From: Paludisphaera rhizosphaerae
Lineage (GTDB): Bacteria > Planctomycetota > Planctomycetia > Isosphaerales > Isosphaeraceae
Direction: 5' to 3'
Assembly (NCBI RefSeq): GCF_011065895.1
Contig: NZ_JAALCR010000006.1
Span: forward strand, 248,001-312,000
DNA length: 64,000 nucleotides
The number at the start of each line of letters is the position of its first letter. The first letter of the stretch is position 1. The position numbers and the translations under genes are program-made. The notes beneath the pieces are model-generated. The model was not told the DNA's origin. It made no database searches and saw only the letters and a list, made by a program, of their open reading frames with translations. Below are positions 25,438-48,997 of this stretch, piece by piece.

Positions 25438-25461
25438 GACACATCGTGGGCAGTAGCGCTT

Positions 25462-25590
25462 CCTCCCTTCTCCCTTGGTGGGAGAAGGTGGCCGAAGGCC
25501 GGATGAGGCAGACCATAACGGCCAACGACGGTTGTGACCCCCCTCCTCCGCCCCTTCGGGGCACCTACTCCCACCAAGGGAGAAGGGTGG
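25462..25590. repeat. Palindromic intergenic repeat, copy A2
   Basis: Arms at 25462-25487 and 25565-25590 match as reverse complements with two mismatches. The interior has the same GGCCGAAGGCCGGATGAGG block as A1 and shares its GACGGTTGTGACCCCCCTC centre. Like A1 it is 129 bases long. Confidence 0.8.
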
Positions 25591-25637
25591 CAGACGCCTT
25601 CGGCGAATCCCACGCAAGTCGTGCCGTACAGCATTAT

Positions 25638-25740
25638 TGGGCCGAAGGCCGGATGAGGGGTAACCCGACCTCCGTCGCCGATGATGACCCCCCTCATCCG
25701 CCCCTCCGGGGCACCTTCTCCCACAAGGGGAGAAGGGAGG
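25638..25740. repeat. Palindromic intergenic repeat, copy A3 (left outer arm missing)
   Basis: The stretch from GGGCCGAAGGCCGGATGAGGGG to the right arm ending AGAAGGGAGG is present, but the left outer arm is absent. This is a truncated copy or the remains of a compound insertion with A2. It ends 37 bases before the BatA/VWA start. Confidence 0.75.
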
Positions 25741-25777
25741 TTTGCTTGAGCATTCGCCAACGCGACTGGGGGAAACC

Positions 25778-27982: not shown

Positions 27983-28054
27983 ATCTTCCCGAAGCGATGC
28001 GCGAGAAGGTCGCCGGAGTTCGGAGGCGAGCTGGGGTCGCGATCCGGACCATAA

Positions 28055-28336
28055 CGGCCTTCCCCCCTCGCGGGGGAAGGTGGCCCGAAGGGCCGGATGA
28101 GGGGGCGATCGGCGTCGCATCGAGAGCCAGCCGCCTGGGTGCCATGGCCACGCTTGCGTGGCCATGCGATCGGCGACGGTCGCGCGGTCGGCCCACGCCG
28201 GTTCATGGCCACGCAAGCGTGGCCATGGCACCCGGAACCGCTTTGAGTGCCGTGTTGCCGACACGCACCCGACGGCGGTCATCCCCCTCATCTGATCGCT
28301 GCGCGATCTGTCTTCCCCCGCGAGGGGGGAAGACCG
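28055..28336. repeat. Palindromic repeat, copy B1, with a nested inverted repeat
   Basis: Arms at 28055-28082 (CGGCCTTCCCCCCTCGCGGG...) and 28309-28336 are near-perfect reverse complements. GGCCCGAAGGGCCGGATGAGGGGG lies inside the left arm. The flank GCCGGAGTTCGGAGG and GTCCGGACC-like sequence upstream recur at copy B2. The centre carries an extra inverted repeat (28137-28233). Confidence 0.83.
28137..28233. repeat. Perfect 30-bp inverted repeat nested in copy B1
   Basis: Bases 28137-28166 (starting GGGTGCCATGGCCACGC) are the exact reverse complement of 28204-28233, with a 37-base centre. Each arm is also internally palindromic (CATGGCCACGC/GCGTGGCCATG). It is absent from copies B2 and B3, so it looks like a second small element inserted into the first. 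Confidence 0.85.
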
Positions 28337-28368
28337 TCATTCGTCATTGCTCGATCCGAAGCGCGACG

Positions 28369-28415
28369 ACCCTCACCCGCCGCTGCGCGGCACCCTCTCC
28401 CGGCGGGAGAGGGGA
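28369..28415. repeat. Half-element of a third repeat type
   Basis: GACCCTCACCC followed by CACCCTCTCCCG and GGGAGAGG recurs next to copy B2 (37380-37432), always just right of a B-type element. It reads as half of another palindromic family. Confidence 0.55.
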
Positions 28416-28474
28416 CGGTTCGCGCACCGGCGTCATGAAGACTAACAGCCTTATTCTCCCGCAGGACGCCTGAC

Positions 28475-30989: not shown

Positions 30990-33900
30990 ATGAGCCGACC
31001 TCGGACGAAACTGGAGATGCGACTGGCCGCTTTGCGCGGTCAGGTGCGACGGCTGTTGCTGACTTACGGGTTCAGCCGGGTGCTGGCGGTCGTCGTGCCG
31101 CTGATCCTGGCGGCCGGGCTGGCGGACTGGGCGTTCCATCTCGACCCGGCGGTGCGTCTCGCTCTGCTGGCGACGGTCGTCGGCGCGGCGGCCTGGGCGG
31201 CCTGGCGCTGGGTGATCCGTCCGGCGTTGACGCCGTTCGAGGACCTGGACGTCGCCATGCGGATCGAGGAGCGCTGGCCGGGCCTGGAAGACCGCCTGGC
31301 GAGCACCGTGCAGTTCCTCCAACTGCCGGCAGACGACCCGACCTACGGCTCGCCGGCCCTGCGCGAGGCGACGATTCAGCGCGCGATGGCCGAGGTCGAG
31401 AAGCTCGACTTCCGCGAGGCCGTCGACCGCCGGCCGATCGTCCGCGCCGGGATGCTGGCGGCGGCGACGCTCCTGCTCGCCGGCTCGGCCGTGGTGCTCG
31501 ACCCGTCGTCGGCGGGGATCGCGGCGCGTCGGCTGTTCGCCCCGTTCGGCAAGGTCGCCTGGCCGCAGTTGACGCATCTGGCCCTCGATAAGGCCGGCAC
31601 CACCCTGAAGCTCGCCCGTGGCGACTCCTTCAGCCTGGTCGTCCGTACCGAAGCCGACTCGCGCGTTCCCGAATCGGCCAAGGTCGTCTACAAGTTCGCC
31701 GACGGCGAGGTCCGCACCGAGACGCTCTCGGTCGTCGAGGGGGGCGAGTTCCGCGGCCGGATCGATACGGTCGACCAGCCGTTCACCTTCAGCGTGACCG
31801 GCGGCGACGATGCAGGCTCGATTCGCGACGTCACCGTCCGCGTCGTCACCCCGCCGGCGCTCACTCGCACCGACCTCCGCATCGCCCCGCCCGAATACAC
31901 CGGCCTGCCGGCCGCGACGCTCGCCTCCGGCCTGACCACGTTCAAGGTGCTGGCCGGTACGCGGGTGGAGATCGACGCCTCGGCCGACAAGCCGCTCTCC
32001 AAGGCCCTCCTTCATCGTAGCGACGTCCCCGAGCCCCAGCCGGCCCCGCTCGACGCGACGGGGAGCCGGTTCCACGTCGTCCTCACCCCGGCGGCCGACC
32101 TGAACTTCTGGTTCGAGATCGCCGATTCGGAGGGCTTTGCCAGTCGCGAGGCCGTCCGCTACGACGTCCGGATGGTGAAGGATGAAGCGCCGAGGGTTGC
32201 GATCGTCGAGCCCAAGACCGACCGCGACGTCCCGCCCGACGCCCACATCCCGGTGGCGATCGACGTCGACGACGATTACGGGATCCAGTCGATCGGCATG
32301 AACTTCCAGATCGCCAGCGGCGACACCGAGCCCCACGACGTCGTCACGCTCCCCCTCTGGACGGCCCCCGCGCCGCAGGCTTCGGGCGTTGGGCCGGGCT
32401 CCGCCGGGACGGCGACGACGGCGGCCTCGGCGATGGTCAAGCACCAGTCGGTCAAGCACGACTGGGACCTCGCCCAGCTTCACGTCACCCCCGGCTCGAT
32501 CATCACCTTCCACGCCGACGCCCGCGACTTCCTGACGCCGAACGGCCCGAACCAGGGGAAGTCCCGCGAGCTTCGGCTGCGGATCGTCGCCAAGGAAGAG
32601 GCCGCCCGCCAGTTCGACGAGGCCCGCCGCGCTCTTCGCGAGGAGATCGCCCGGACTCTCGCCATGCAGAAGCAGGCGACCGTCCCCGTCGCCGACGCCC
32701 AGCGCGCTCTCGACCAGGCCGGCTCGCTCTCCAAGCCCCAGCGCGACGAGCTGGACAACGCGGGCCTCGTCCAGCGCCAGGTCGGCGGACGGCTCAACAA
32801 CCGCGACGACGGCCTGGAGAAGAACGTCCGCAGGCTGCTGGACGACCTCCAGAACTTCAAGCTGGACAACGCCCCCGCCAAGGACCAGATGGAGCGCATG
32901 CTCGCCCAGCTCGACCGCATGCGCGACCAGAACCTCGCCGCCGCCGAGCAGTCCCTCTCCCGCGCCCGCAAGTCCCTCGACGCCGCCGCCAAGGACCAGG
33001 CCGGCGGCGACCAGAACCAGGCCAAGGACCAGAACGCCCCCCAGGACGGCGCCCAGGCTGACCAGCAGGCCGGCGACCAAAACCAGGCCCAGTCCGGCGA
33101 GCAGTCCAAGTCGCAGTCGGGCCAGCAGTCCAAATCCCAGTCAGGTCAGCAGTCGAAGTCTCAGTCGGGCCAGCAATCCAGGTCCCAGTCGGGCGAACAG
33201 TCGAAGTCGCAATCCGGCGAACAATCGCAGGCCGGCGAGCAGTCGCAGGCCGGCGAGCAGTCGCAGGCCGGCGAACAATCGAAGTCGCAGTCGGGCCAGC
33301 AGTCCAGGTCGCAGCCTTCCCAGCCTCAGCAGCCGAATCGGTCGCGGGACGTGGCGAAGGAGGCGCTCGCTCAGGCGAAGCAGAACCAGAACGCGATCAG
33401 CAACGAGCTGCAGAAGATGCTCGACGAGCTGGGCGAGTTTGAGACCTATCGCGGGGTGGTGAAGGACATCCAGGAGCTGGTCAAGAAGCAGGAAGAGGCG
33501 ATCAAGCAGTCGACGGCCGCCGGCGAGAACAAGGACCTCGCGGGCAAGAAGCGGGACGACCTGGCGCCCGACCAGAAGGCCGACCTGGCCAATCAGGCTG
33601 AGCGTCAGAAGGAACTCGCCAAGACGCTGCAGGACGCCCAGCAGAAGATGGACGAGATGGCCGGCCGTCTGGACCAGTCCGACCCCCTGGCCGCCGCCGC
33701 TCTCCGCGAGGCTGCTCAGACGAGCCGGGACGCCAGGACCGCCGGCAAGATGGAGGACGCCGCCAAGGGCGTCGAGCAGAACCGGATGAGCGACGCCCGC
33801 AAGGCCCAGGAAGACGCCATGCAGGACCTCAAGGATCTGGCCGATCTGGTGCAGAACCGTCGCGAACGCGAGCTCGCCCGGCTGGTCAAGGAGTTGAAGA

Positions 33901-35916: not shown

Positions 35917-37056
35917 ATGATCCGACGACGCTCTGTTCACGCCCTGCTCCTGGCCGCCGCGTCCGCCTCGGCGCTCGCCGCCCAGGACGCCCCCAAGGCC
36001 GAGGCCCCCAAGCAGGAGGCCCCCGCTCAAAAGACCGATGACGACATGAAGGGCAAGAAGGCCCAATCCGTCGGCGTCTTCGGCGAGGCGATCCGCGGCG
36101 ACGTCCCTGACAATAATCGCGAGTTGGTCACCCCAGAGGCCGACCGCGCGATCCAGAACGGCCTGGCCTGGCTCGCCCGCCAGCAGCAGGCCGACGGCTC
36201 GTTCGGCAGCGGGACGTATCGCGGCAACATCGCCGTGACCAGCCTCTCGGGGCTGGCCTTCATGGCGGCCGGCTCATCGCCGGGCCGCGGCCCCTACGGC
36301 GCGCAGGTGGACAAGGCCCTGTCGTACGTGATGGCGAACACGTCGCCCGCCGGCTTCATCGCCGTCGCCGCGGCGTCGACCCACGGGCCGATGTACTCCC
36401 ACGGCTTCGGCGCTTTGTTCCTGGCCGAGGCCTACGGCATGACCCGCCGACCCGAGATCCGCGAGAAGCTCCAGAAGGCCATCCGGCTGATCATCGACAC
36501 CCAGAACCCTGAAGGGGGCTGGCGATACCAGCCGGTCCGGGCCGACGCCGACATCTCGGTGACGATCTGCGAGATCAACGCCCTTCGAGCCGCAAGAAAC
36601 GCCGGCCTGTTCATCCCCAAGGAGACGGTCGACGCCTGCATCAAGTACGTGAAGCAGGCCCAGAACCCAGACGGCGGCTTTCGGTACATGCTCCAGGGGG
36701 GGGCCAGCGCCTTCCCCCGATCGGCCGCAGGCGTCGTGGCGTTGCAAAGCGCCGGCGTCTACGACGACAAGGAGGTTGCTGAAGGGATCACCTATCTCAA
36801 GCAGTTCATGCGCGAGATCAAGCAGGGGAGCCGCTACAGCCACTTCTTCTACGGCCATTACTACGCCGCCCAGGCCATGTGGATCCGCGGCGGCGACGAA
36901 TGGAACGAGTGGTTCCCCGCCATCCGCAACGAGTTGATCCACCGCCAGTCCGCCGCCGGCTACTGGACTGACAGCATCTGCAACGAATACGGCACCGCCA
37001 TGGCGCTCATCATTCTGCAGATGCCCAACAACTTCCTCCCCATCTTCCAGCGCTGA
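35917..37056 (+). CDS. Secreted prenyltransferase/squalene-cyclase-type repeat protein
   Basis: The ATG of MIRRRSVHALLLAAASASALA lies 4 bases after the preceding stop and 7 bases after GGGGAG. The signal peptide ends near LAAQ. The mature part of about 350 residues has QW-like alpha/alpha-barrel repeats: ALAWLARQQQADGSFGSG, IIDTQNPEGGWRYQP, YVKQAQNPDGGFRYML, CNEYGTAMALIILQMP. No DxDD cyclase motif is visible, so an enzymatic role in terpenoid chemistry is unlikely; a binding or inhibitor-type barrel fits better. It belongs to the MoxR run, and its stop overlaps the start region of the NPCBM gene. Confidence 0.85.
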   Translation: MIRRRSVHALLLAAASASALAAQDAPKAEAPKQEAPAQKTDDDMKGKKAQSVGVFGEAIRGDVPDNNRELVTPEADRAIQNGLAWLARQQQADGSFGSGTYRGNIAVTSLSGLAFMAAGSSPGRGPYGAQVDKALSYVMANTSPAGFIAVAAASTHGPMYSHGFGALFLAEAYGMTRRPEIREKLQKAIRLIIDTQNPEGGWRYQPVRADADISVTICEINALRAARNAGLFIPKETVDACIKYVKQAQNPDGGFRYMLQGGASAFPRSAAGVVALQSAGVYDDKEVAEGITYLKQFMREIKQGSRYSHFFYGHYYAAQAMWIRGGDEWNEWFPAIRNELIHRQSAAGYWTDSICNEYGTAMALIILQMPNNFLPIFQR

Positions 37057-37059
37057 GTG

Positions 37060-38658
37060 ATGACGGATCGAACCATGATGCGCAGCGAATGTGACGGACA
37101 GGCGGCGAGCCGGGGCCGCGAGGTCAAAACTCTCGTCTCCGGGCCGGGTAAGAGCCGCCGGAGTTCGGAGGGCGTCCGGACCATAACGGCCTCCCCCCCT
37201 CGCGGGGGAAGGTGGCCTGAAGGGCCGGATGAGGGGGGATCGGCTTCGCGTGAAGAGCGATCGACCGGATGCGCGTCCGACGGCGGTCGTCCCCCTCATC
37301 TGATCGCTTCGCGATCTGTCTTCCCCCGCGAGGGGGGAAGACCGTCTTCGGTTTCCGCATCGCTCGATTCGAAGCGTGAAGACCCTCACCCGGCCCTTCG
37401 AGCCACCCTCTCCCGGGGGGGGAGGGGACTTCGATTCCGGCGCACCGCCTGGGCCCTCGTCGCCTTCCTTGCGGCCGCGGCGCCGGCCTGGTCTCAGAAC
37501 GCCTCGCGTCCGGGGAGCGGGCCGATCTTTGACGTGCTGACGACGACCGGCCCCGGTTCTTCGGGGACGATCGTCGCGCTGAGCCCGGACGGGATCACGG
37601 TCGCGCCGGCGGAGGGGCCGGCGAAGGAGTTCGCGGCGACCGATCTGATCCGGCTTCGTCGCGAGTCCGAGGTCGTCGTCGGCGAGGGTTCCTACGTCGT
37701 CTTGCCGGGGGGTGATCGGCTGGCCCGGGCTCGCGTCGGCTCGGCGACGGATACGGCCGTCGAGGTGGAGGCGGAGGCGATCGGCAAGGCCAACGTCCCT
37801 CTCGACGCCCTTCTCGGCCTGATCCTGACGCCTCCCTCCGATCCAGACGCCTTCGACGCTCTGCTCCGCAAGATCCGCACGGAGCCTCGGACCAGCGAGG
37901 TCGCCTGGCTGGCCAACGGCGACCGTGTCGTCGGCTCGTTTCTGGGGATGGACGACCGCGTGGTCAAGCTCCAGTCTCAGGACGCCGCCGCTCCCCGCGA
38001 ACTGGCCCGGGAAGGCGTCGTCGCCGTCGGCTTCGACCCTGCGCTGATCGCCTACCCGAAGCCCGAGGGGCCTTATCTGGAGATGGGTCTGATCGACGGT
38101 TCCCGACTCGGCGTGGTCGGGGCTAAGCTGGAGCGGGGACGGGTGTCTGGGGTTTCGCGGTTCGCGGCGAAGGTGGACGTCCCGATCGACTCCGTGATCC
38201 AGGCGACGCCTCGGACGGAGGCCGTCCAGTATCTCTCCGAGCGTCCGGTCGACGGCAAGATCTACGTACCGTTCTTCGACATCGTCCGTCCGTTCCAGGT
38301 CGACGCCTCGGTTGAGGGCCGGCCGCTGCTGCTCAACGGATTGACGTATGATCGGGGCTTCGGCGCGTCGAGCCGGACGCTGCTGGCCTTCAAGCTCAAG
38401 CCGGGCGACCGGCGATTCCAGGCCCTCGTGGGGGTCGACGGTCGCGCCGGACCGTCGGGGAGCGTCGTCTTCCGCGTTCTGACCGACGGCAAGGCTCGCT
38501 TCACGAGCGATCCGCTCACGTACCGCGATGCGCCCATCGCCGTCGACGTGGACCTGGAAGGCGCCAAGCTCCTGATCCTGGCCACCGAATTCGGCGAGCG
38601 CGGCGACGCCCGCGACCTGGCCGATTGGGTCGAGGCCCGCATCGTCCGCAATCCCTGA
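37060..38658 (+). CDS. NPCBM-domain exported protein with repeat-derived N-terminal extension
   Basis: The only starts in frame are at the 5' end (GTG 37057, ATG 37060, ATG 37075), coupled to the preceding stop. No ATG, GTG or TTG in frame follows before the secretion signal FRRTAWALVAFLAAAAPAWSQ near residue 130. The first 125 residues or so are mostly translated palindromic repeat (SPPRGGRWPEGPDEG). The mature part is beta-rich. It ends in an NPCBM/NEW2-type domain: LLLNGLTYDRGFGASSRTLLAFKL, FQALVGVDGRAGPSGSVVFRVLTDG, DWVEARI. NPCBM domains bind sugars. Either the signal now works internally or an unusual start is used. Confidence 0.75.
   Translation: MTDRTMMRSECDGQAASRGREVKTLVSGPGKSRRSSEGVRTITASPPRGGRWPEGPDEGGSASREERSTGCASDGGRPPHLIASRSVFPREGGRPSSVSASLDSKREDPHPALRATLSRGGRGLRFRRTAWALVAFLAAAAPAWSQNASRPGSGPIFDVLTTTGPGSSGTIVALSPDGITVAPAEGPAKEFAATDLIRLRRESEVVVGEGSYVVLPGGDRLARARVGSATDTAVEVEAEAIGKANVPLDALLGLILTPPSDPDAFDALLRKIRTEPRTSEVAWLANGDRVVGSFLGMDDRVVKLQSQDAAAPRELAREGVVAVGFDPALIAYPKPEGPYLEMGLIDGSRLGVVGAKLERGRVSGVSRFAAKVDVPIDSVIQATPRTEAVQYLSERPVDGKIYVPFFDIVRPFQVDASVEGRPLLLNGLTYDRGFGASSRTLLAFKLKPGDRRFQALVGVDGRAGPSGSVVFRVLTDGKARFTSDPLTYRDAPIAVDVDLEGAKLLILATEFGERGDARDLADWVEARIVRNP
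37187..37344. repeat. Palindromic repeat, copy B2, inside a coding frame
   Basis: Arms at 37187-37214 and 37317-37344 are near reverse complements. The upstream flank GCCGGAGTTCGGAGG and the downstream half-element (37380-37432) match those of copy B1. The whole copy is open in the frame of the NPCBM gene. Confidence 0.84.
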
Positions 38659-38684
38659 TTCACCCTCGCCGAGCCCGACCCGCC

Positions 38685-39401
38685 ATGATCGAAACTCCCC
38701 AGGGCCCGACGACGAAAGCCGCCCTCCCCGAGGTCCGGCCGGACGTGCTGGGTCACGTGGCTTCGGCCGTCGTCCACAGCGTCATCAACCGCTTCAGTGC
38801 GATCGTCAGCCAGGCGGAGATGCTCAAGGCCCGGCGGCCCACTCCCGCCGAGGCGGCCCGCCAGGCCGACGCCATCATCGCCGCCGCGCTCGAAGGTTCG
38901 ACCCTCGCCCGCCGACTGGCCGAGTACGCCCGCAGCTCGACCGTCTCCGCGATGACGTCCGTCGATCTTGACGCTCTGATCACGTCCCGCCTGGCCGTCC
39001 GCCGCAACGACGCTCCCGACGGCGTCGCCCTGGTCGGCGACCTCGCCGCGCGCGCCGTCTTCCCCGGCGATGCTCCGAGGCTGTCGATCATGCTCGATTG
39101 CCTGATCGACAACGCCTTCGAGGCTCTCGAATCGGTCGGGAGAGGCGGCCTGGTCACCGTCGCCACCCGGACCGACCCCCAGGGCTGGCTGGAACTGGAC
39201 GTCCGCGACGACGGACCCGGCATGGCCCCGGACGTTCTGGAACTGGCCCTGGAGCCCTTCTTCAGCACCAAGGCGGAGCACTCCGGCCTGGGCCTCCCCC
39301 TGGCCCGCAGCCTCTGGCGCCGCCACCGGGGCGCCTTCTCCATCGACGCCCCCCTCGGCCGAGGAGCGCTGGTCAGGCTCACCCGGCCCCTTTCGGATTG
39401 A
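38685..39401 (+). CDS. Small soluble sensor-histidine-kinase-like protein
   Basis: The 238-residue protein starts at MIETPQGPTTKAALPEV, 26 bases after the NPCBM stop. The H-box region is VVHSVINRFSAIVSQAE. The HATPase domain follows with N-box MLDCLIDNAFEAL, G1 VRDDGPGM, F-box EPFFSTK and G2 SGLGLPLARSLWRRH. There is no membrane segment, sensor domain or neighbouring response regulator. It is therefore a compact cytoplasmic kinase whose signal comes from a partner protein. The histidine is followed by S and not the usual E/D, so phosphorylation at this site should be verified. It is the last gene of the plus-strand run. Confidence 0.8.
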   Translation: MIETPQGPTTKAALPEVRPDVLGHVASAVVHSVINRFSAIVSQAEMLKARRPTPAEAARQADAIIAAALEGSTLARRLAEYARSSTVSAMTSVDLDALITSRLAVRRNDAPDGVALVGDLAARAVFPGDAPRLSIMLDCLIDNAFEALESVGRGGLVTVATRTDPQGWLELDVRDDGPGMAPDVLELALEPFFSTKAEHSGLGLPLARSLWRRHRGAFSIDAPLGRGALVRLTRPLSD

Positions 39402-39552
39402 GGCTCGGCCCGGCGGCGGTTGGCGTTCTCAGGTCGTCACGGACCCTCGCAGGCGGTCGCCGCCTTCGCACGTGTCAAACCGACCTTGCATCGCGGCCCG
39501 ACCTCACCGAGGATGTGGCGCTTCACAACCCAGTCCGGGAGACGACTGCGCG

Positions 39553-42108
39553 ATGTTCCCACAGGATCAGCCCACCCTCGGCACGGATGCTCGCCGCCGG
39601 TTCCTACCCGTGCTGCTTCTTCTCTTCGTCGGCAGCGGCTGCGCAGCGATGATCTATGAGGTCGTCTGGCTGCAGCTTCTCCAACTCGTGATCGGCTCGA
39701 CGGCCGTCTCGTTGGGCGTGGTGCTGGCGTCGTTCATGGGAGGCATGGGGGCGGGGAGTCTGCTCCTTCCCCGGCTGGTTTCGGCCCGGCGAAACCCCTT
39801 GCGGGTCTACGCCCTGCTCGAACTGGCCATCGGTCTGATGGGGTTGATGCTGCTGTACGGCATGCCCTACGTTGAACACGTCTACGTGCTTTACGCCGGT
39901 CGCGGTGCGCTGGACGTGTTCTTTCGAGGCGTCGTCGCCGGGGTTTGCCTGTTGCCCCCCACGCTCCTGATGGGAGCGACCCTCCCGGCGATCGCCCGGC
40001 GGGTCGAGACCGATCCGGAAGGGGTCTCGTGGTTGGGGTTCTTCTACGGCGGCAACCTCGCCGGAGCCGTGCTCGGCTGCCTGGCGGCAGGCTTCTACCT
40101 TCTTCGCGTCTACGACATGGCGACGGCGACCTACGCGGCCGTCGCTCTGAATGTGGCCGTCGCCGCGATCGCGCTGGCCCTCTCGGTGGTGCCTGGGGGC
40201 TCGGAGGCTCCGTCCGAGCCGGGACCCTTTGAGATCTCTTCACGGGGCGACCGAGCCGTCTATCTGGCGATCGGTCTCTCAGGCATGTCGGCCCTGGGCG
40301 CGGAGGTTGTCTGGACGCGTCTGCTCTCGCTGATGCTCGGCGGTACGGTGTACACGTTCTCCCTGATCCTGGCCGTCTTCCTGACGGGACTGGGGATCGG
40401 CGGCAGCGTCGGGGCGCTGGTGGCTCGGCGGGCCGAATCGGCCCGAGCGGGACTGGTCGCCTGCCAGTGGCTGCTCACCCTGGCGATCGCCTGGACTGCG
40501 CTGATGATTTCGCAGTCCCTCCCCTACTGGCCGATCCTGCCGGAGGTTTCCTCCAGCCCCTGGTACACATTCCAGCTCGACCTGGCGCGCTGCCTCTGGG
40601 CGGTCCTGCCGCCGGCCTGCCTCTGGGGAGCGAGTTTTCCGCTGGCCCTGGCGGCGGTCGCCTCGCCGGGTCAGGATCCGGGGCGGCTCGTCGGCCGGGT
40701 CTACGCGTCGAACACAGTCGGTGCGTTGCTCGGGGCGCTCGTGTTCAGCCTGCTGCTGGTCCCGGCGGTTGGCACGGCTCATGCGGAACGCGTGCTGATC
40801 GGCCTGGCCGCGGCGGCCGCGCTGGCGGCGTCGATTCCCCTGCTCCGTTCATCGTCGAGGGGGCCGATCCGTCCCAGCCTCGTGCTCGGGTCGGCGGCGG
40901 CGACGGTCGTGGCCGGTCTGCTGGCCTGGTACCTGGCGCCTTTGCCGTGGCAGGTCGTCGCATTCGGACGACAGACTGCGAGCGCCCTGCCTCAGGCCGT
41001 GCCCGGCATCCATCAAGAGAAGCCGGCCGACCTGGGCGAGGCCGACTTCTTCTGCCGGTACGTCGGCGAGGGAGCGAACGTTTCTGTGGCCGTCACCGAG
41101 TCCTCGGACGGCTATCGCAGCTTCCACGGCGCGGGCAAGGTCCAGGCGTCGACCCGCCCCGTCGATATGCGGCTCCAGCGGATGCTCGGGCATATCCCGG
41201 CTCTGGTTCATCCCAAGCCGGAGTCCGTGCTGGTCGTGGCCTGCGGCGCGGGGGTTACCGCCGGCTCCTTCATTCCGCACCCCGAAGTCCGCCGCATCAC
41301 CATCTGCGACATCGAGCCCCTGGTGCCCCAGGTCGTCACGCCGATGTTCGGTGAGGCGAACTACCACGTCGTGGATGGGATCGCCCGCGAGAACCCGCAT
41401 AACGTCGACGGCAAGCAGGTCGAGGTGATCTACGACGACGGCCGCCACTTCCTCCGCACCACCCGCGAGAAGTTCGACGTCATCACCTCCGACCCGATCG
41501 ACCCCTGGGTCAAGGGATGCGCTGCGCTGAACACGGTTGAATATTATCAGATGTGCAAAGAGCATCTGAAGCCGGGCGGGATCGTCGCCCTCTGGATCCC
41601 CCTCTACGAATGCAACGAGGAGACGGCCAAGAGCATCATCGCCACGTTTTTCGAGGCCTTCCCCAACGGCATCCTCTGGAGCAACGACCGCGAGGGGATC
41701 ATCTACGACGCCGTTCTCTTCGGCCAGGTGGAGCCCACGGTGATCGACGTCGACGCCCTCCAGGCCCGGCTCGACCGACCCGATCACAAGGTGGTAAAGC
41801 AGTCGCTCCGCGAGGTCGGATTCGGACCGGCTCGCGAGGACGGCCTGGAAGAGGGCGTGGACCTGCTCAACACTTACGCCGGTCAGGCGTCCATGCTGAA
41901 GGAATGGACGCGAGGCGCCCAGATCAACACCGACCGCAACCTTCGGCTCCAGTATCTGGCCGGCATGTGGCTGAACTCCAGCCTGGACGAGCGCATCCTC
42001 CGCGGCATCCGCTCCGAGTATCGTTTCCCCGAGCAGACCTTCGTCGGCTCTCCGGAGCGTATCGCCGTTTTGAAGAAGCTCCGGCACCGACCGACCCGGT
42101 GGGAGTGA
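39553..42108 (+). CDS. Membrane-anchored spermidine-synthase-like protein
   Basis: The ATG of MFPQDQPTLGTDARRR has GGGAG 11 bases upstream. The 851-residue protein has about 12-14 hydrophobic helices in the first 500 residues (VLLLLFVGSGCAAMIYEVVWLQ, FLTGLGIGGSVGALVA, LWGASFPLALAAV). A soluble Rossmann domain follows: VLVVACGAGVTAGSF as the nucleotide-binding loop, ITICDIEPLVPQV, VEVIYDDGRHFLRTT, DVITSDPIDPWVKG and YYQMCKEHLKPGGIVALWIPL. This is the fused MFS/spermidine-synthase-like family common in planctomycetes. GAGV replaces the usual GGGxG and the aminopropyltransferase residues are only partly kept, so the true reaction is uncertain. Confidence 0.8.
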   Translation: MFPQDQPTLGTDARRRFLPVLLLLFVGSGCAAMIYEVVWLQLLQLVIGSTAVSLGVVLASFMGGMGAGSLLLPRLVSARRNPLRVYALLELAIGLMGLMLLYGMPYVEHVYVLYAGRGALDVFFRGVVAGVCLLPPTLLMGATLPAIARRVETDPEGVSWLGFFYGGNLAGAVLGCLAAGFYLLRVYDMATATYAAVALNVAVAAIALALSVVPGGSEAPSEPGPFEISSRGDRAVYLAIGLSGMSALGAEVVWTRLLSLMLGGTVYTFSLILAVFLTGLGIGGSVGALVARRAESARAGLVACQWLLTLAIAWTALMISQSLPYWPILPEVSSSPWYTFQLDLARCLWAVLPPACLWGASFPLALAAVASPGQDPGRLVGRVYASNTVGALLGALVFSLLLVPAVGTAHAERVLIGLAAAAALAASIPLLRSSSRGPIRPSLVLGSAAATVVAGLLAWYLAPLPWQVVAFGRQTASALPQAVPGIHQEKPADLGEADFFCRYVGEGANVSVAVTESSDGYRSFHGAGKVQASTRPVDMRLQRMLGHIPALVHPKPESVLVVACGAGVTAGSFIPHPEVRRITICDIEPLVPQVVTPMFGEANYHVVDGIARENPHNVDGKQVEVIYDDGRHFLRTTREKFDVITSDPIDPWVKGCAALNTVEYYQMCKEHLKPGGIVALWIPLYECNEETAKSIIATFFEAFPNGILWSNDREGIIYDAVLFGQVEPTVIDVDALQARLDRPDHKVVKQSLREVGFGPAREDGLEEGVDLLNTYAGQASMLKEWTRGAQINTDRNLRLQYLAGMWLNSSLDERILRGIRSEYRFPEQTFVGSPERIAVLKKLRHRPTRWE

Positions 42109-42123
42109 GGCCCGACGGGACCC

Positions 42124-43032
42124 TCAGCCCTCGCCTCGATACCCGCGCAGCTCCGGCGGCGTCGGGGGTGAGACCCCGGGCGGCGGCCCGTGGCGAAAGC
42201 TCGGGTCGGGAGTCCCGCGCCATAGGCGGGGGATGAAGGGAAATTCGTCCGTCAGCACATAATAATACGTGCCGTCCGGAAATTCGGGAGTCGGGCCGGT
42301 GCGGCCGTTGCATTCGTCGAGGTCGCCTCGGCCCGGGTCGTACTCGAAATCCTCGACGAACCGCCCGTCGAATCGCCCGCCGGGGCCGTCGCTGCGACGA
42401 CCGCCGCGCAGGCGGTAGCTGGAGCGCAGCCGTCGAGTCCGACTCTTCACGTCGACCGGGTCGCCCGGGCATTCGGGCCCGTAGATCGGGAAGCCGTCGG
42501 CCGCGAAGCCCAGCAGGTGCATGGGGCGCCCTGGATCGGCGACGGAGCGGTTCCAGAGCAAGCCTGTGGGGAGTCCGTGGTAATGGTAGGCTCCCCTCCC
42601 CTGGGTATGGGCATGGTTGCCGTCGATCCCCAGCGCCCGGGCGTTCGCGGGGTGGAGCACCTCGAACTGCCAGCCGCTGCGGCCGTCGGCGTTCCAGAAC
42701 GGCCCCGAGGGGTCGAACGGCACCCCGTTTACCGCCACGCCGAACAACCACATGGCGATCGGCGAAGGATGCTCCGCCGCGACCGGCGCCGTCGGGGTCT
42801 CCAGCACATACCTTTGCGGCCGGAGCGATACCGGGTCGTGGGGGTTGGGAAAGTCTCCGGCGGGGTGGTCGGGAATCCCGTTCGACGTGATCCTCCGCCG
42901 GCCGTCCGCCGCGACGATCAAGACCTCCGCCGGGTTGTCTCCCCCCGAGCCCGCTAGCAGCCGGACGCCGCCGGCCGCGACGACCGGCGCGGCGAATCCT
43001 CCGACGATCAGCTTGCGACGATCCAGCTTCAT
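42124..43032 (-). CDS. YHYH-domain exported protein
   Basis: The ATG (MKLDRRKLIVGGFAAPVVAAGG) follows a GGGGGGG ribosome site. RRK-LIVGGFAAPVVAAGG is a possible Tat-type signal. The 302-residue protein carries the family hallmark GAYHYHGLPTGLL, with HAHTQG upstream and GFPIYGPE, ECNGRTGPTPEFPDGTYYYVLTDEFPFIPR downstream. The histidine cluster suggests metal binding. Function is unknown. It is divergent from rarA. Confidence 0.85.
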   Translation of the reverse strand: MKLDRRKLIVGGFAAPVVAAGGVRLLAGSGGDNPAEVLIVAADGRRRITSNGIPDHPAGDFPNPHDPVSLRPQRYVLETPTAPVAAEHPSPIAMWLFGVAVNGVPFDPSGPFWNADGRSGWQFEVLHPANARALGIDGNHAHTQGRGAYHYHGLPTGLLWNRSVADPGRPMHLLGFAADGFPIYGPECPGDPVDVKSRTRRLRSSYRLRGGRRSDGPGGRFDGRFVEDFEYDPGRGDLDECNGRTGPTPEFPDGTYYYVLTDEFPFIPRLWRGTPDPSFRHGPPPGVSPPTPPELRGYRGEG

Positions 43033-43104
43033 CGGTCCCCCCCTTCAACGATCAGGTTACTCGGCCCACTCGCCGACTTCGACCATAATCGCTCGAGCGT
43101 CGGG

Positions 43105-43110
43105 TATAAT
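43105..43110 (+). promoter_or_regulatory. Candidate -10 element of rarA
   Basis: An exact TATAAT lies 45 bases before the rarA start. No convincing -35 box is present at 16-18 bases. CTCGAG and CGCTCGAGCG form a short palindrome just upstream. Confidence 0.4.
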
Positions 43111-43154
43111 GGACGCGTGGACACAGTGGGAGTCGTTCGGGAGGGAGCAGGCTG

Positions 43155-44462
43155 ATGGCTCGGGAATCGACGGGCTCGCTGTTCGGCAGGTCGGACGAGC
43201 CGGCGTGGGCGGAGGAATCGGCGGCGCCGGTCGTATCGGCCGACGCCCCGTTGGCCGAGCGCATGCGTCCTCGGTCGCTCGACGAGTATGTGGGGCAGCA
43301 GCATCTCGTCGGTCCGGGGCGATTGGTCCGCAGGCTGGTTGAGGGGGGCGGGCCGATGCCCTCGTTGATCTTCTGGGGAGGCCCGGGCGCAGGCAAGACG
43401 ACGCTCGCCCGCCTCGTCGCCGGCCCCAGCGGGGCGCGGTTCGTGCAGCTTTCGGCGGTGCTCTCGGGCGTGAAGGAGCTTCGCGAGGCCATCGCCGAAG
43501 CCCGCACCCGGCGCAACCGAGGCGTGCGGACCGTCCTCTTCATCGACGAGATCCACCGCTACAACAAGGCCCAGCAAGACGCCTTGCTCCAGGCGGTTGA
43601 GGAGGGCGTCGTCAGCCTGATCGGCGCGACGACGGAGAACCCGTCGTTCGAGGTGAACTCAGCGTTACTCTCGAGGTCGCGAGTCTTGACGCTGGAACCG
43701 TTGACGCCCGACGACGTCGCCATGATCCTCCGCCGCGCGTTGACCGACGCCGACCGCGGACTTGGCACGCTCAATCCCCAGGTCGCCGAAGTCGAGCTAG
43801 CCCGCCTGGCGAAAGCCGCCGGCGGCGACGCCAGAGTCGCGCTCACGGCCCTGGAAACCGCCGTCCTCGCCACGCCCCCCGCCGAGGACGGCTCGCGGAC
43901 GGTCGAGCCCGAGACCCTCGTCGAGGCCCTCGGCCGCGCCCGATACGCCTATGACAAGGGGGGCGAGGAGCACTACAACCTGGCCAGCGCTCTGATCAAG
44001 AGCCTGCGCAACTCCGACGCCAACGCCGCGCTCTACTGGCTGGCCCGCTTGATCGAGGGAGGGGCGGATCCGATCTTCATCGCCCGCCGGCTCTGCATCC
44101 TGGCGTCTGAAGACGTCGGCCTGGCCGATCCCCAGGCGATCGTCCAGGCCGCAAGCGCCGCTCAGATCGTCCAGCTCATCGGCCTCCCCGAGGGTCTCTA
44201 CCCCCTCGCCCAGGCGACGATCTACCTGGCGAACGCCCCCAAATCCAATGCCATCAAACGAGCCTACTTCGCCGCCGCCGAAGACGCCGCCGCCACCGCC
44301 CGCGAACCCGTCCCCCTGCACCTCCGTAACGCCGTGACCTCACTGATGAAGGCGAACGGCTACGGCCAGGGCTATCGCTACGCCCACGACGACCCCGCTG
44401 CGAAGGACGAGATGCCTTGCCTCCCTTCGGCTCTGCGAGGAAAGACCTACTTTCGTCCATAA
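43155..44462 (+). CDS. rarA: Replication-associated recombination protein A (RarA/MgsA)
   Basis: The ATG has GGGAGGGAG upstream. The 435-residue AAA+ protein begins with a SLF-type peptide (GSLFG) and [21 protein letters not shown]. Walker A is [13 protein letters not shown] near residue 78, Walker [25 protein letters not shown], sensor 1 [12 protein letters not shown] and arginine finger SALLSRSR. The C-terminal MgsA tetramerisation domain is also clear ([52 protein letters not shown]). RarA acts at stalled replication forks. Confidence 0.95.
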
Positions 44463-45037
44463 CCGTACCGCGACGACCTGGCCGCGGGACTGGCGTCCCA
44501 TCCCGAATCGAGGACCTTTTGCACCTCTTGTCAGGCTATAAAAGGCTTGATCGAGGTGTTCGTTTTTTGAATGGCGTTCTGCCGACGGTGGTACACCTTC
44601 GGCGTTGGTCTTGCATCAAGACATACGATGCCTCGACGATGCAGGGAGCCCTGGCCCCAAGCGGCAACCTCGGCCGGGCTCCAAAGCCGCGATCTGGGAC
44701 GATAACGTCGGATGTGCGTCGCAGACGCTCGTAAATCCTTTCACTCTCGGCGTTTTGCTCGACCGACGACTGGTCCGGGTGTGTCCGGAGGAGTACTCAT
44801 GGAGGGGCGTCTCTGGTCTCTTCGTTGGAATTCCCATAGCTCCCATCGACGTCCCCCTCTGTGTCCGATTTCCCAACTCCTCCTGTAACGCCTACCTAAC
44901 CTTTGAGGCGGCGGGAATTTTCCGATGGACGGCGTCGATTAGGTCGATTTATCTTGTTCGTCGACGCCTCTCACCCCGGCGGCCGATTCGATCGGCCCGT
45001 CCTCACCGTTTCTACCGGATTGCGAAGGACCCGCCCG
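44463..45037. other. Intergenic region, no gene supported
   Basis: This 575-base gap is less GC-rich than the flanks. TATAAA at about 44536 and a T6 run near 44560 stand out, but no -35 partner or hairpin was found. Short frames on both strands have non-protein-like composition. The DUF362 ribosome site is at its right end. Confidence 0.45.
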
Positions 45038-46273
45038 ATGAGCGACCGTTACCCGTGCGGCACGTTGAAGCGTCGAGCCTTCCTGGGAGCCGCCGCGGCG
45101 GCGGCTGGTGCGCCCTGGATCGCCCGCGGGCCCGTTCGGGCCGGCGCGATCGACGATCCGGCCGGAGCGACGGCTCACGGGCCGAAGGTTGAAAAAAGCA
45201 AGTTCGACCTCCCCGGCCTGTATCCCGGTCGCGTGGTCGAGGTTCGGAACGCGGCCATGATCCGCGACATGAAGAAGGATCGCGCCGCCATCAAGACGAG
45301 CCTCGACAAGGGGCTGACCTCGCTCACCGGTGCGGACGACGCGGTCTCCGCTTGGCGGACCTTCTTCGAGCCCGGCGACGTTGTCGGCATCAAGGTCGTT
45401 CCGAACGGGTATCCTCACTCCTTCTCTTCGTACGAGCTGGTGCTGGAGACGATCGAGGGACTCAAGGCGTGCGGCGTCAAGCCGACCGACATCTTCGTCT
45501 ATGAGCGGTTCCGCTCCGAGATGCAGTCCGCCGGCTACGATAAGATCCTCCCCGACGGCGTCCGCTGGGGCGGTCTCACCGCGACGGGCGGCCCGCAGAT
45601 CCAGATGGAATTCGACGGCTTCAAGGACGACCCGATCGCCGGCTACGACCGCGACGTTTACATCCAGATGGACCTCGTTCACTACGGCGAGGACCCCAAG
45701 GACGACCGCCAGTATCGCTCGCACGTCGGCAAGCTGCTGACGAAGCACGTCAACAAGGTCGTGGCGATTCCCTGCCTGAAGGACCATCGCTCCGCCGGCG
45801 TGACCGGGGCCCTGAAGAACATCAGCCATGGTTCGGTGAACAACGTGGCGCGGTCGCACGCCAACAACTTCACCAACACCTGCAACCAGTTCATCCCCCA
45901 GGTGGTCAGCCACCCGCTGCTCCGCTCGAAGTTCGTCCTCCAGATCATGGACGGTATTCGCGGCATCTACAACGGCGGGCCGCAGGGGACGAAGGACGGC
46001 CGTTGGAGCTGGGACGAGAACGCCCTCTTCCTCGCCACCGACCCCGTCGCCATGGACCGCATCGAATGGGCGCGGATCGACGAGCGGCGGAAGATCCAGA
46101 ATCTTCCGCCCGTGGCCGCCACCGGCAAGACGGCGCTCGATCCTCTCAGCATGGAAGGCTTTGACGTCCGTCAGCCGCAGCACATCGCGCTGGCCGGGAC
46201 GCTTGGCCTGGGGACCTACCTGTTCGAGGGGAAGAAGGGCCCGTTCATCCGCCACGACGTAATCACGGTTTGA
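45038..46273 (+). CDS. DUF362 exported protein
   Basis: The ATG at 45038 (MSDRYPCGTLKRRAFLGAAAAAAG) follows GAAGGA at 9 bases. KRRAFLGAAAAAAGAPWIA is a Tat-type signal. The 411-residue protein matches the DUF362 family: FEPGDVVGIKVVPNGYPHSFSSYELVLETIEGLKACGVKPTDIFVYERF, VVAIPCLKDHRSAGVTGALKNISHGSVNN, LQIMDGIRGIYNGGPQG, LFLATDPVAMDRIEW. The cysteine of PCLKDH is present but no ferredoxin-type [4Fe-4S] motif is seen. Function is unknown. Its last 11 bases overlap the stop of the convergent VWA gene. Confidence 0.85.
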   Translation: MSDRYPCGTLKRRAFLGAAAAAAGAPWIARGPVRAGAIDDPAGATAHGPKVEKSKFDLPGLYPGRVVEVRNAAMIRDMKKDRAAIKTSLDKGLTSLTGADDAVSAWRTFFEPGDVVGIKVVPNGYPHSFSSYELVLETIEGLKACGVKPTDIFVYERFRSEMQSAGYDKILPDGVRWGGLTATGGPQIQMEFDGFKDDPIAGYDRDVYIQMDLVHYGEDPKDDRQYRSHVGKLLTKHVNKVVAIPCLKDHRSAGVTGALKNISHGSVNNVARSHANNFTNTCNQFIPQVVSHPLLRSKFVLQIMDGIRGIYNGGPQGTKDGRWSWDENALFLATDPVAMDRIEWARIDERRKIQNLPPVAATGKTALDPLSMEGFDVRQPQHIALAGTLGLGTYLFEGKKGPFIRHDVITV

Positions 46274-47498
46274 CGACCTCGGCCGCCCGCCTCGTCAGCG
46301 ACGGCAAGAACGCCAGCGCGGCGAGGCCGGCGGCCAGGATCAGGAACAAGGGCGACCAACCGGCGGCCGGAACGACCATCCCCGGGATGAACACGGCCGT
46401 CTCGCCCACCTTGCGGCTCCCCCGGTGGATCACCTGCACCGGGCGGAGCGTGCCGTCGGGGATGCGACGGTCGCTCTGGTAGGTCAGCGAATAGCCGGCG
46501 CCCAGGCGTTCGGCGATCGCCTCGTAGACCTTCCGCAACTCCTCCGCTCGACGCGCCGGGTAGTACTCTCCACGAGTCCCCGCGGCGAGCTGCTTCAGGC
46601 CGTTGACGTCGATCTCGCGCTCATTGCCGAAGCCCAGGGTGTAAATCGGCAGGCCGAGCTGTTGGCCGCTCGCGACGTCGTCCTCCAACGGGGTCGAGCT
46701 TGAGGTGTCCAACCCGTCGGTCAGGGCGACGATCACGCGCCGGCCGGTCTGGTCTTCGAGCAGCTTCAGCGCCATGGCGACGGCGTCGTAGAACCGCGTT
46801 GGTCCGTCGGCGAACAACTCGTCGACGGCCTTGCCGACCTTCACGCGGTCGGTGGTGAACGGCCGGATCAACTCAACCTGCGAGCTGAAGGCGATCACGG
46901 CGATCTTGGAGCCCTGGGGAATCTTCTCCAGGAACCGGGCCACCGCGCCCTTCAGCGAGGCGAGTTTCGCCTCCTCGTTCATGCTGCCGCTGCGGTCGAC
47001 GACCAGGACGATCGTGGTCGGGACGTTCTCCTTGGTGAGCGGGGCCTGGAAATCCAGGATCGGCCGCTCCTGGCCCTCCTCAGTGACGCGAAACTCGTCC
47101 TTCGTCGCATCGCGGACGAACGTCCCGTCCGGCTTTCGCAGCTCGAACTGCACGCCGATTTTGGGGAAGTCGTCCTGGCTCGCACCGGTGACGACGACGG
47201 AGAGGTCGTCGGAGGCGGGGGGAGCAGGAGCGTCTTGCGCGCGGACGGATGTTGCTGCGACGAGGAAGAGAACCAGGAACAGGATGCCTCCGATCGGGAA
47301 CCCGACGGCCTTCCCCCCTCGCGGGGGAAGGTGGCCGCGCAGCGGTCGGATGAGGGGGGATAGGCGCGGCTTCGAAGTTAATGTGCCGGATGCGCGAGCG
47401 ACGCCGGTCGCCCCCTCATCCGGCCCTTCGGGCCACCTTCCCCCGCAAGGGGGGAAGGCCGGTTGGGACTGAATCGAACTCGTTCTTCGGTCGTTCAT
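46263..47498 (-). CDS. VWA-domain membrane protein with repeat-derived N-terminus
   Basis: The start (MNDRRTSSIQ) is well fixed: ATGA overlap with the upstream FHA gene stop and a GGGGGGG ribosome site. The next 50 residues or so are palindromic repeat B3 translated (PPCGGRWPEGPDEG). Only then comes the signal or membrane helix PIGGILFLVLFLVAATSVRAQ (about 67-85). The VWA domain follows (VQFELRKPDGTFVRDATKDEF, VLVVDRSGSMNEE, VIVALTDGLDT, IYTLGFGNE), metal site intact. A C-terminal helix is present (WSPLFLILAAGLAALAFL). No in-frame start exists between repeat and signal. It is the last gene of the Hsp70/FHA cluster. Confidence 0.85.
   Translation of the reverse strand: MNDRRTSSIQSQPAFPPCGGRWPEGPDEGATGVARASGTLTSKPRLSPLIRPLRGHLPPRGGKAVGFPIGGILFLVLFLVAATSVRAQDAPAPPASDDLSVVVTGASQDDFPKIGVQFELRKPDGTFVRDATKDEFRVTEEGQERPILDFQAPLTKENVPTTIVLVVDRSGSMNEEAKLASLKGAVARFLEKIPQGSKIAVIAFSSQVELIRPFTTDRVKVGKAVDELFADGPTRFYDAVAMALKLLEDQTGRRVIVALTDGLDTSSSTPLEDDVASGQQLGLPIYTLGFGNEREIDVNGLKQLAAGTRGEYYPARRAEELRKVYEAIAERLGAGYSLTYQSDRRIPDGTLRPVQVIHRGSRKVGETAVFIPGMVVPAAGWSPLFLILAAGLAALAFLPSLTRRAAEVVKP
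47306..47461. repeat. Palindromic repeat, copy B3, inside a coding frame
   Basis: Arms at 47306-47333 and 47434-47461 match as reverse complements with one mismatch in 28. On the minus strand it is read in frame within the VWA gene. Length is 156 bases, an exact multiple of three. Confidence 0.85.
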
Positions 47499-48997
47499 AC
47501 GGTCCCCCCCTTCCCCGGCGGGAACGCCAGGCACGAGGCCGTCGCCAACGCCAGACCGAGCGCCGCGGCCGAGAGTGCCGGCGATCCGAAGAGGCTCTCG
47601 AAACTCCGCATCGCGGCGAAGACGACCGAGGCCGCCAGCACGCCGACGACGGCGCCGGCGAACGTGGAGGCGATCGAATCGCGGACGCCTCCGCTCATGC
47701 CGACGGCCCAGCCAAGGACCGCACCGACCAGCGCGGGGAACGCCGCTGCGCCCGTGAGGCGGGTTTCGCCCCCGCTTGCCAGGAACGGCAGCCGGTTTCC
47801 CAGGGCTGCCAGGCCGCGGAGGGCCAGGACGACCACCGGGAACATCCAGAGCCGATTGGCGACCGAGATCCCTCCCAGTCGATCGCCAAGAGGACGCATC
47901 GGCGACCACCCGGGGCCGACCGGCTCGGGCGAGTCTGGGATCGTCTCCACGCGAGGCCGCTCGACGCGGACTCCGACTCGGCGCGAGACCCCCCCGGCGG
48001 TGATGACCACCGCACCGAGCGTGGCGTCGAAGGCGCCTTCGGGCGGTTCAATCTCGACGACGATCTCGGCTTCGTCGACGATCGCCCGTGCCTTGTCCTT
48101 CGATCCGGGCGCAACGCGGATGGCGTCCGGCGATCCGACGGCAGCTTCGACGGTGATCGTCGGCCGCAGGATGCGATAGCCGACGTTGGCGATCCGGATC
48201 GACTTCCGAACCACGCCGCCGACCGTGTTCGACGGAACGCGCAATTCATCGGGATGGACGTCCAACTCGGGAGCCGCCGGCTTCGTCGTCGGCAGTCGGC
48301 CGAGCCAGTCGTCGAGCACGTCGTCAGGCGACCAACCCGGCTCCCGGCGCGGGAGGAGATCGGTCCTTCCCACGCGCTTGAGGTGCTCGCCGATCCTTCC
48401 CGTCGCCAGCTCGTCGCGGACCGTCGTCCACTTCTGTGCGGAGAGCGTCAGGAAGTCGTCCCAGGTCCGGCACGCCGAACCGTCCTGGAAGGCGTAGGGG
48501 ATTGAAAGCGGGCCGGTTCTGACCGGTGGCGGCGTGGGTTGTGGTGGCGATGGAGGCGGCGGCGAGGGTTTCGGTTTCTCGGCCGCCGGGGCGGGGCGGG
48601 CCGCGCCGTTCGTGGGGGCCGAGGCAGGTTGGGGCTCGGGCTTCTTCGCGGCCTCGGAGCGGACGACGAGTTGGATCGCGCCGATCTGCACGACGTCGCC
48701 GGGGGCGAGCGCTCGCTCCTGCTTCGTGAACAACCGCTGTCGGTTGACGAACGTGCCGCCGGGGCTCTCAAGGTCACGGATCGAGAGAATCTCGCCGGCC
48801 AGCGTCAGCACGGCCTGTCTCGGCGCCATCTTGCGCGGGGTGTCGCCTTCCTGGTCGGCCAGGCTGATGAATGAGGGAGCCCAGGGGCCGTTGCCGAGGA
48901 TCGTCTCGCCGCCGTCCAGCGAGTATCGGCGGCCGGGCTCGCGGCCCTTGGCGATCTCCAGGATCCATCGCGTCTTGGTCGTGGTGGTCGCGGCCAT
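47495..48997 (-). CDS. FHA-domain protein with C-terminal membrane segments
   Basis: The 500-residue protein starts at MAATTTTKTRWILEI, 6 bases after the stop of the preceding gene. The N-terminal FHA domain (about 10-112) has GREPGRRYSLDGGETILGNG, ILSIRDLESPGGTFVNRQRL and LAPGDVVQIGAIQLVV. The usual RxxxN phosphothreonine-contact pattern is altered. A proline-rich linker (about 115-160), a soluble middle and an Ig-like part (about 245-355) follow. About four membrane helices end it (FPALVGAVLGWAVGMSGG). FHA domains bind phosphothreonine peptides, so a kinase input is likely (inference). Confidence 0.82.
   Translation of the reverse strand: MAATTTTKTRWILEIAKGREPGRRYSLDGGETILGNGPWAPSFISLADQEGDTPRKMAPRQAVLTLAGEILSIRDLESPGGTFVNRQRLFTKQERALAPGDVVQIGAIQLVVRSEAAKKPEPQPASAPTNGAARPAPAAEKPKPSPPPPSPPQPTPPPVRTGPLSIPYAFQDGSACRTWDDFLTLSAQKWTTVRDELATGRIGEHLKRVGRTDLLPRREPGWSPDDVLDDWLGRLPTTKPAAPELDVHPDELRVPSNTVGGVVRKSIRIANVGYRILRPTITVEAAVGSPDAIRVAPGSKDKARAIVDEAEIVVEIEPPEGAFDATLGAVVITAGGVSRRVGVRVERPRVETIPDSPEPVGPGWSPMRPLGDRLGGISVANRLWMFPVVVLALRGLAALGNRLPFLASGGETRLTGAAAFPALVGAVLGWAVGMSGGVRDSIASTFAGAVVGVLAASVVFAAMRSFESLFGSPALSAAALGLALATASCLAFPPGKGGTV

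Follow-up and report, generated by a model that had tools for sequence, protein, structure and literature searches.

How does a palindromic repeat come to stand between the start codon of a bacterial gene and the signal peptide encoded by that gene, and is it translated there? The question is raised by a 64,000-nt stretch of DNA (positions 248001-312000 of contig C6, here called the window) of the 8.05 Mb genome of the planctomycete Paludisphaera rhizosphaerae (G000). Three copies of a palindromic repeat, B1, B2 and B3, were found in the window exactly where an initial annotation had placed them, together with the sequence ATGA at 27979 and 47498 and the start region TGAGTGATG at 37054-37062. 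The annotation also held that in two genes, encoding an NPCBM and a VWA protein, the hydrophobic core of the secretion signal follows the repeat with no start codon in between; indeed, no ATG, GTG or TTG is present there. Protein-coding palindromes are best known from Rickettsia. Our analysis suggests, with a probability of about 0.68, that palindromes in the n-regions of genes with overlapping starts are in frame, translated and tolerated, a behavior like that of the Rickettsia palindromic elements (RPE).

The palindromic dimer

The repeat unit is not a product of chance. Allowing up to 3 mismatches it has 6 matches in the window versus a mean of 0.65 after shuffling, and 173 matches in the whole genome versus 0 for the reversed pattern. 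A unit consists of the core CTTCCCCCCTCGCGGGGGAAGGTGGCC, a small hairpin and GGCCGGATGAGGGGG. B1, B2 and B3 are each one arm of an inverted dimer and not lone units; the dimers are generally about 150-175 bp long. The 174 cores in the stretches examined in G000 form 113 clusters, 55 of which are a simple inverted pair with a spacing of mostly 125-133 nt. Examined by eye, the inverted termini are alike across 51 aligned dimers, often forms of CATAACGGC-CTTCC.. / ..GGAAG-GCCGTTATGG. Folded as RNA, B3 forms a single long hairpin (-129.9 kcal/mol, z -11.5) and B2 a fold of -108 kcal/mol (z -6.8). Rfam returned no match in window positions 27000-48500. By inspection, the consensus unit has a stop in only one of its six frames. 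When a frame of a two-unit element from an intergenic region is picked at random, it lacks stops in 75 of 240 instances (31%) in G000 and in 57 of 138 (41%) in the related genome G001. The repeats are probably non-autonomous palindromic elements.

The VWA gene

The clearest case is B3. The features concerned are:

47495 to 48997, minus strand: upstream gene with an FHA domain and a weaker Yop-YscD_cpl match (Pfam); its TGA stop overlaps the VWA start
46263 to 47498, minus strand: gene of a VWA-domain secreted or membrane protein, hydrophobic core at residues ~69-85 (Pfam PF13519/PF00092, orthologues, structure model)
47299 to 47470, minus strand: B3, palindromic dimer of two inverted units within the VWA gene, codons ~12-66 (sequence, RNA fold)

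The ATG of the VWA gene overlaps the stop codon of the FHA gene (ATGA at 47498). The same ATGA is present in G000, G001, G002, G003, G004 (likely Paludisphaera soli JC670) and G029 (likely the metagenome-assembled genome BP9.bin90), with 471-502 open codons upstream; in G005 (Planctomycetales bacterium 71-10, locus L224) the overlap reads GTGA. We read 21 named VWA loci. In 8 the VWA gene is fused to the preceding gene, and of the 13 unfused loci 12 begin at an ATGA or GTGA. Ten of these 12 have an upstream frame of at least 454 open codons; in L226 and L233, both of which lie close to a contig end, it comprises just 71 and 34 codons. As a separate observation, in several Isosphaeraceae (L038, L039, L042, L051, L053 and L056) the VWA domain is in one frame with a preceding prenyltransferase/squalene-cyclase-like gene, an apparent fusion.

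The distance from the start to the domain match is 22-42 residues in nine of the 12 loci (L226, L229, L232, L233, L235, L237, L239 and L244 with ATGA, L242 with GTGA), and no large repeat is present. It is 83 residues in BP9.bin90, 87 in P. soli and 144 in 71-10, and in all three the gap is filled by different palindromic repeats, all in frame. G001 and G003 have short hairpins at this position, G002 has none. Between the repeat and the end of the hydrophobic core no ATG, GTG or TTG exists in G000, G005 and G029; in G004 a GTG in mid-core is the only such codon. By eye, the two halves of the inserts in G004 and G005 have diverged, yet the frame is still open. Taking the stop-free fraction times 1/3 for length, the chance of an insertion being in frame is ~0.12, i.e., ~0.002 for three orthologues, a figure which applies to orthologues found by homology alone and assumes that their repeats behave like the intergenic ones of G000 and G001. 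The body of the VWA protein is intact and 66-78% identical to congeners. In a structure model of the window protein, based on 10 sequences, residues 6-67 have a predicted local distance difference test (pLDDT) score below 50; a helix at 69-85 is followed by the VWA fold and a C-terminal helix. Judged by these orthologues, with and without repeats, B3 is an insertion between the VWA start codon and the signal-peptide core.

The NPCBM gene and an intergenic copy

The second copy, B2, is also located ahead of a secretion signal:

37057 to 38658, plus strand: NPCBM gene, start GTG 37057 or ATG 37060, 37075 or 37078, hydrophobic core at about residue 130 (Pfam PF08305, orthologues without insert)
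37183 to 37350, plus strand: B2, palindromic dimer within the NPCBM n-region (sequence, RNA fold)
37381 to 37428, plus strand: additional half unit of a related palindrome past B2, likewise read through (sequence)

In G001-G005 the NPCBM orthologues begin with ATG and a plain signal peptide, without a repeat; read approximately, this first ATG lies some tens of nt further downstream than the start of the G000 gene. In G000 about 110-130 open residues precede the core and no start codon follows 37078 until past the signal. The body, 53-72% identical to congeners, is intact. By comparison with these insert-free relatives, B2 is an insertion between the NPCBM start codon and the signal-peptide core.

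The third copy has to be viewed differently:

27979 to 28473, plus strand: open reading frame (ORF) covering B1, not a gene (no Pfam family, not present in G001-G005)
28050 to 28345, plus strand: B1, intergenic palindromic dimer whose loop holds a second palindrome at 28137-28233 (sequence, congener spacers)
28475 to 30931, plus strand: VWA gene downstream of B1, TTG start (genus orthologues align from residue 2-3)

The palindrome in the loop of B1 is a different, perfect one with 30-nt arms, GGGTGCCATGGCCACGCTTGCGTGGCCATG. The ORF around B1 has no Pfam match and ends ahead of the next gene. In G001-G005 a short spacer, without a counterpart of this ORF, lies between a BatA-type gene upstream and the next VWA gene; in G002 the spacer has an ATGA, then a short ORF which stops. 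Because of these features B1 is to be regarded as intergenic, and the earlier view of it as an N-terminal insert in a gene is abandoned.

Two other repeats of the window are a direct repeat of 300 nt (8638-8937 and 9300-9599, 97% identity, 662 nt apart) and tandem repeats with a period of 24 nt (33017-33324).

Placement behind stop codons

Among the 96 cases in G000 in which a gene end faces the element (five internal clusters left out), the distance to the stop codon is at most 40 nt, or the two overlap, in 53 (median 28 nt); in G001 this holds for 41 of 54 (median 20 nt). Spacers between two starts seldom hold elements (11/107 and 5/59, respectively). This placement agrees with a survey of repetitive extragenic palindromic (REP) sequences, as far as its text was available (PMC3733652). 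The distance from the start to the first repeat peptide is 33-57 nt in B3, in C51 and C3 of G000 (see below) and in C1:437686 and C2:4881896 of G001, of the same order as the stop spacing. A position close to a stop, combined with gene overlap, would therefore yield an N-terminal placement and no special targeting rule is needed.

A mechanism can be formulated as follows. Elements lie preferentially close behind stop codons, as the above counts show. Where the next start overlaps that stop, as in the VWA gene, the C51 hydrolase and the C3 gene, the element comes to lie between the start codon and the signal-peptide core. A ribosome re-initiating at the coupled start would read through any insert which lacks stops and whose length is divisible by three. 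Such an insert would then extend the n-region by a long disordered segment before the hydrophobic core and be cut off with the signal peptide; therefore, the mature protein would be unchanged.

Distribution in two genomes

Genes were called by codon usage, trained on 201 ORFs. The G000 clusters are a sample drawn from among the matches listed (173 in all) plus the copies in stretches examined; 112 of 123 were classified, and 11 with flanks below 450 bp were left out. G001 was picked as a replicate while its matches were still unseen; here, stretches around the 75 listed matches were used and none of the 59 clusters was left out. In G000, 75 clusters are intergenic, in 10 a gene ends inside the element, 5 are internal and in frame and 2 are open at the C-terminus. 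Five are N-terminal without a later start, 14 are N-terminal with a start after the element, and C2:153861, without any start, forms a class of its own. In G001, 36 clusters are intergenic, in 3 a gene ends inside the element, none is internal and 1 is C-terminal; 1 is N-terminal with no start behind it (a sulfatase), and 18 are N-terminal with a start after the element. N-terminal copies which are followed by a start codon probably lie upstream of the gene. No gene was clearly broken by an element when the 10 most suspicious of 31 same-strand flanking pairs (105 clusters) were inspected by eye, and about eight of these ten are plainly an array of stop, element and next start.

Further N-terminal candidates ahead of a secretion signal are C51:9841 (hydrolase) and C3:91972 in G000 and the candidate sulfatase in G001. 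At C51 palindromes follow the coupled start in both G000 and G001, and G005 has none. At C3, the orthologues in G001, G004 and G005 combine ATGA with a plain signal peptide. A hydrophobic core follows in five of the six N-terminal cases without a later start (five in G000, one in G001), the exception being a cytosine methyltransferase (C25); the baseline is 209 of 534 genes (39%, P 0.037).

Copies within mature proteins

Elements also appear to persist in frame within mature proteins. At the sequence level five hosts exist in G000: a PUFA (polyunsaturated fatty acid)-synthase-like protein, a CusA-type efflux pump, a protoporphyrinogen oxidase, a kinase with two tandem dimers and a PMT-type membrane protein. 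In the serine/threonine kinase gene (contig C47, L159:2900-3240) the two dimers occupy ~115 codons. In the efflux pump the element is part of a longer stretch which is absent from CusA (query 683-973 vs. chain 645-649). Most informative is the oxidase. It has 537 residues in G000 versus 473-491 in four congeners, which are 77-80% identical and lack an insert of ~60 aa between GWRL and ARAV, while the rest aligns throughout. In PDB 3i6d the counterparts of the two halves are residues 6-270 and 277-461. The empty site is too diverged for defining a target-site duplication.

The initial annotation had seen a single shared frame. The three window ORFs do read FPPxGGRWPEGPDEG (SPPRGG.. in B2), but genome-wide the first units within genes are read in three frames, FPPRGGRW/FPPGGGRQ, SPLAGEDR and LPPSRGKVAAKRPDEG. 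Thus, for the peptide, the genome-wide count points in part to random frame use. Inspection shows that a frame shift caused by the loop variants GGCCCGAAGGGCC and GGCCGCGAAGCGGCC makes the TGA of GGATGAGG avoidable. Since several frames are used, nothing points to selection for one particular peptide, and the repeats are probably tolerated selfish DNA.

Alternative explanations

A number of observations weigh against in-frame, translated palindromes as a general behavior. The replicate G001 backs the N-terminal pattern weakly and the internal pattern not at all. The association of N-terminal copies with a hydrophobic core is weak and suggestive only. The NPCBM start has no overlap, as GTG 37057 abuts the upstream stop and the ATGs come after it, and one unfused VWA locus, L227, is without an overlapping start. 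In the C51 orthologue of G004 the palindrome is upstream and the start is behind it; at C3 translation could begin at an ATG inside the element. Likewise, C8:255603 in G000, for which no congeneric orthologue was found, and C1:437686, C2:1347645 and C2:4881896 in G001 have an ATG or GTG at or after the end of the element as a possible start. A hairpin of -130 kcal/mol inside the coding region of the VWA gene could hinder translation. Finally, congeners possess a second, more distant oxidase gene, i.e., the interrupted copy may be dispensable.

Could the repeat be an untranslated leader, a hairpin for post-transcriptional control, with translation starting behind it at a non-standard codon such as CTG, ATC or ATT? 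The strong folds of B3 and B2 and the clusters with a start after the element (14/112 and 18/59) are in line with this, and the available text of PMC3733652 argues for such a role of many N-terminal REP copies in other species. Yet neither the VWA gene of G000, G005 and G029 nor the NPCBM gene offers a standard start before the end of the core, G004 has only its mid-core GTG, and the overlapping VWA start is conserved and the frame is intact in four species whose inserts differ. We therefore consider a start behind the repeat rather unlikely.

Decay of the repeat-bearing genes, with a broken start region and a frame that is open by chance because the repeats are poor in stops, appears improbable. 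A stop-free random frame is in fact common (31 and 41%), but the VWA and NPCBM bodies are intact and near their congeners, the diverged insert halves of G004 and G005 remain open, and a single gene, VWA, has four in-frame cases with different repeats. That all three copies are intergenic repeats within spurious ORFs is correct for B1 and describes most copies in both genomes (75/112 and 36/59); for the entire set it is highly improbable because orthologues, whether or not they carry the repeat, fix the VWA start, and internal in-frame copies exist. Hence, we prefer the view that palindromes inserted in frame in n-regions are translated and tolerated.

In sum, the coupled starts proposed initially stand for B3, where ATGA is conserved in 12 of 13 unfused VWA loci, and fall for B2 and for B1, which is not in a gene. 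The orthologues which lack the repeat, suggested as a check, bear out the insertions: the VWA overlap is kept with and without inserts and NPCBM is insert-free in G001-G005. The proposed likeness to RPE is retained for the in-frame persistence (5/112, with the empty site of the oxidase) and for the N-termini of VWA and NPCBM, and has to be given up with respect to a single peptide and to B1.

Comparison with known palindromic elements

RPE are palindromic, ~150 bp long, present in many copies and in frame in unrelated protein genes, N-termini included, according to the portions available of PMC10969869 and PMC3733652. Compared by description, the elements reported here differ: they occur in Isosphaeraceae, are GC-rich inverted dimers, use several frames and recur at a site between an overlapping start and the signal-peptide core. 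A conserved peptide, an RPE trait in the accessible part of PMC10969869, is not evident here, where three frames are used. In its available text PMC3733652 doubts many N-terminal copies, while Rickettsia conorii proteins with an N-terminal RPE-1 are expressed; it lists intragenic REPs for species other than Rickettsia, many of them in the verrucomicrobium O. terrae.

The REP dimers of the GTAG and CGTC superfamilies, as described in that text, are similar in that the units are mostly paired in opposite orientation, lie close behind stops and are in part inside genes. By eye, no consistent GTAG or CGTC end was seen in our dimers: across the 51 aligned dimers the ends read ACGGC, ACGGT, ACGTC and so on, with CGTC in part of the copies only. 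The discussion of PMC3733652 mentions Planctomycetes; in the text available, five planctomycete genus names that were looked for do not occur. With miniature inverted-repeat transposable elements (MITEs) and bacterial interspersed mosaic elements (BIMEs) the elements share the non-autonomous nature, the terminal inverted repeats and the location near gene ends. The only Y1 transposase gene found in the genome (PF01797) has no element core in its 3.3 kb locus; a Y1 transposase as mobilizer, as in GTAG REPs linked to REP-associated tyrosine transposases (RAYTs), was thus rejected. In titles and abstract beginnings of open-licence literature we found no account of translated palindromes ahead of signal peptides or in Isosphaeraceae.

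DUF559 genes bracketed by palindromes

A different lead emerges from another part of the window:

24864 to 24992: palindromic dimer upstream of the DUF559 gene
25027 to 25437, plus strand: DUF559 gene, nuclease-like (PF04480, E 2e-32), bracketed by palindromic dimers of related kind
25459 to 25593: downstream palindromic dimer, sharing 87% identity with the upstream dimer over 126 nt
25640 to 25743: partial third copy, behind the downstream dimer

The other DUF559 gene in the stretches examined in G000 (C42, L156) has on either side units which are identical over 51 nt; its stretch was chosen for its units. A search of plasmid loci matched 42 records; 16 loci were examined and 15 tested; the Pseudanabaena locus, in which DUF559 belongs to a large protein, was left out. 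Flanks were counted as shared if the 350 nt upstream and the 350 nt downstream had a repeat scoring at least 34 bits in common, a threshold set after the first ten loci had been seen. Eight of the 15 share a flanking repeat, by eye mostly palindromic (Azospirillum lipoferum, A. argentinense, Novosphingobium, three Deinococcus, Picosynechococcus and Sinorhizobium meliloti); no shared repeat was found in seven (Azospirillum TSH58, A. brasilense twice, Sphingomonas parapaucimobilis, Sinorhizobium K101, Synechocystis B12 and Photobacterium GJ3). Including the two loci of G000, 10 of 17 DUF559 loci from several phyla are bracketed versus 2 of 92 controls (Fisher P 2.6e-8), with the qualification that loci of one genus are not independent and that in unannotated records the match and not the gene set the edges. 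The controls are arbitrary 400-nt blocks; in plasmid loci 1 of 41 positions was positive, in the window 1 of 51. When both G000 loci and the weakest case are set aside, the ratio is 7/14 vs. 1/41 (P 1.2e-4). Regarding location, the DUF559 gene of Sphingomonas parapaucimobilis (L392:1495-1905) is situated between sufB and sufC, and those of Deinococcus (L394, L396, L397) are similarly placed in hpa and paa gene clusters.

No paper tying DUF559 to repeats or palindromes was found among the titles and abstract beginnings of open-licence literature. As a tentative, and in our own estimate doubtful, proposal, palindromic dimers might be mobilized, or kept in duplicate, across phyla by the DUF559 nuclease which they bracket, inserting just past stops; the n-regions of overlapping gene pairs might then be a safe harbor for translated selfish DNA which is removed by signal peptidase.

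Implications

In-frame palindromes that are probably translated and tolerated, a behavior associated with Rickettsia, are now seen in a planctomycete genus whose congeners supply the empty sites. Open to testing are whether the extensions are made and removed and, with DUF559 as a lead, what moves palindromic repeats that lack a transposase. The prediction is that genes with an overlapping start followed by a cleaved signal are those which can carry translated mobile DNA.

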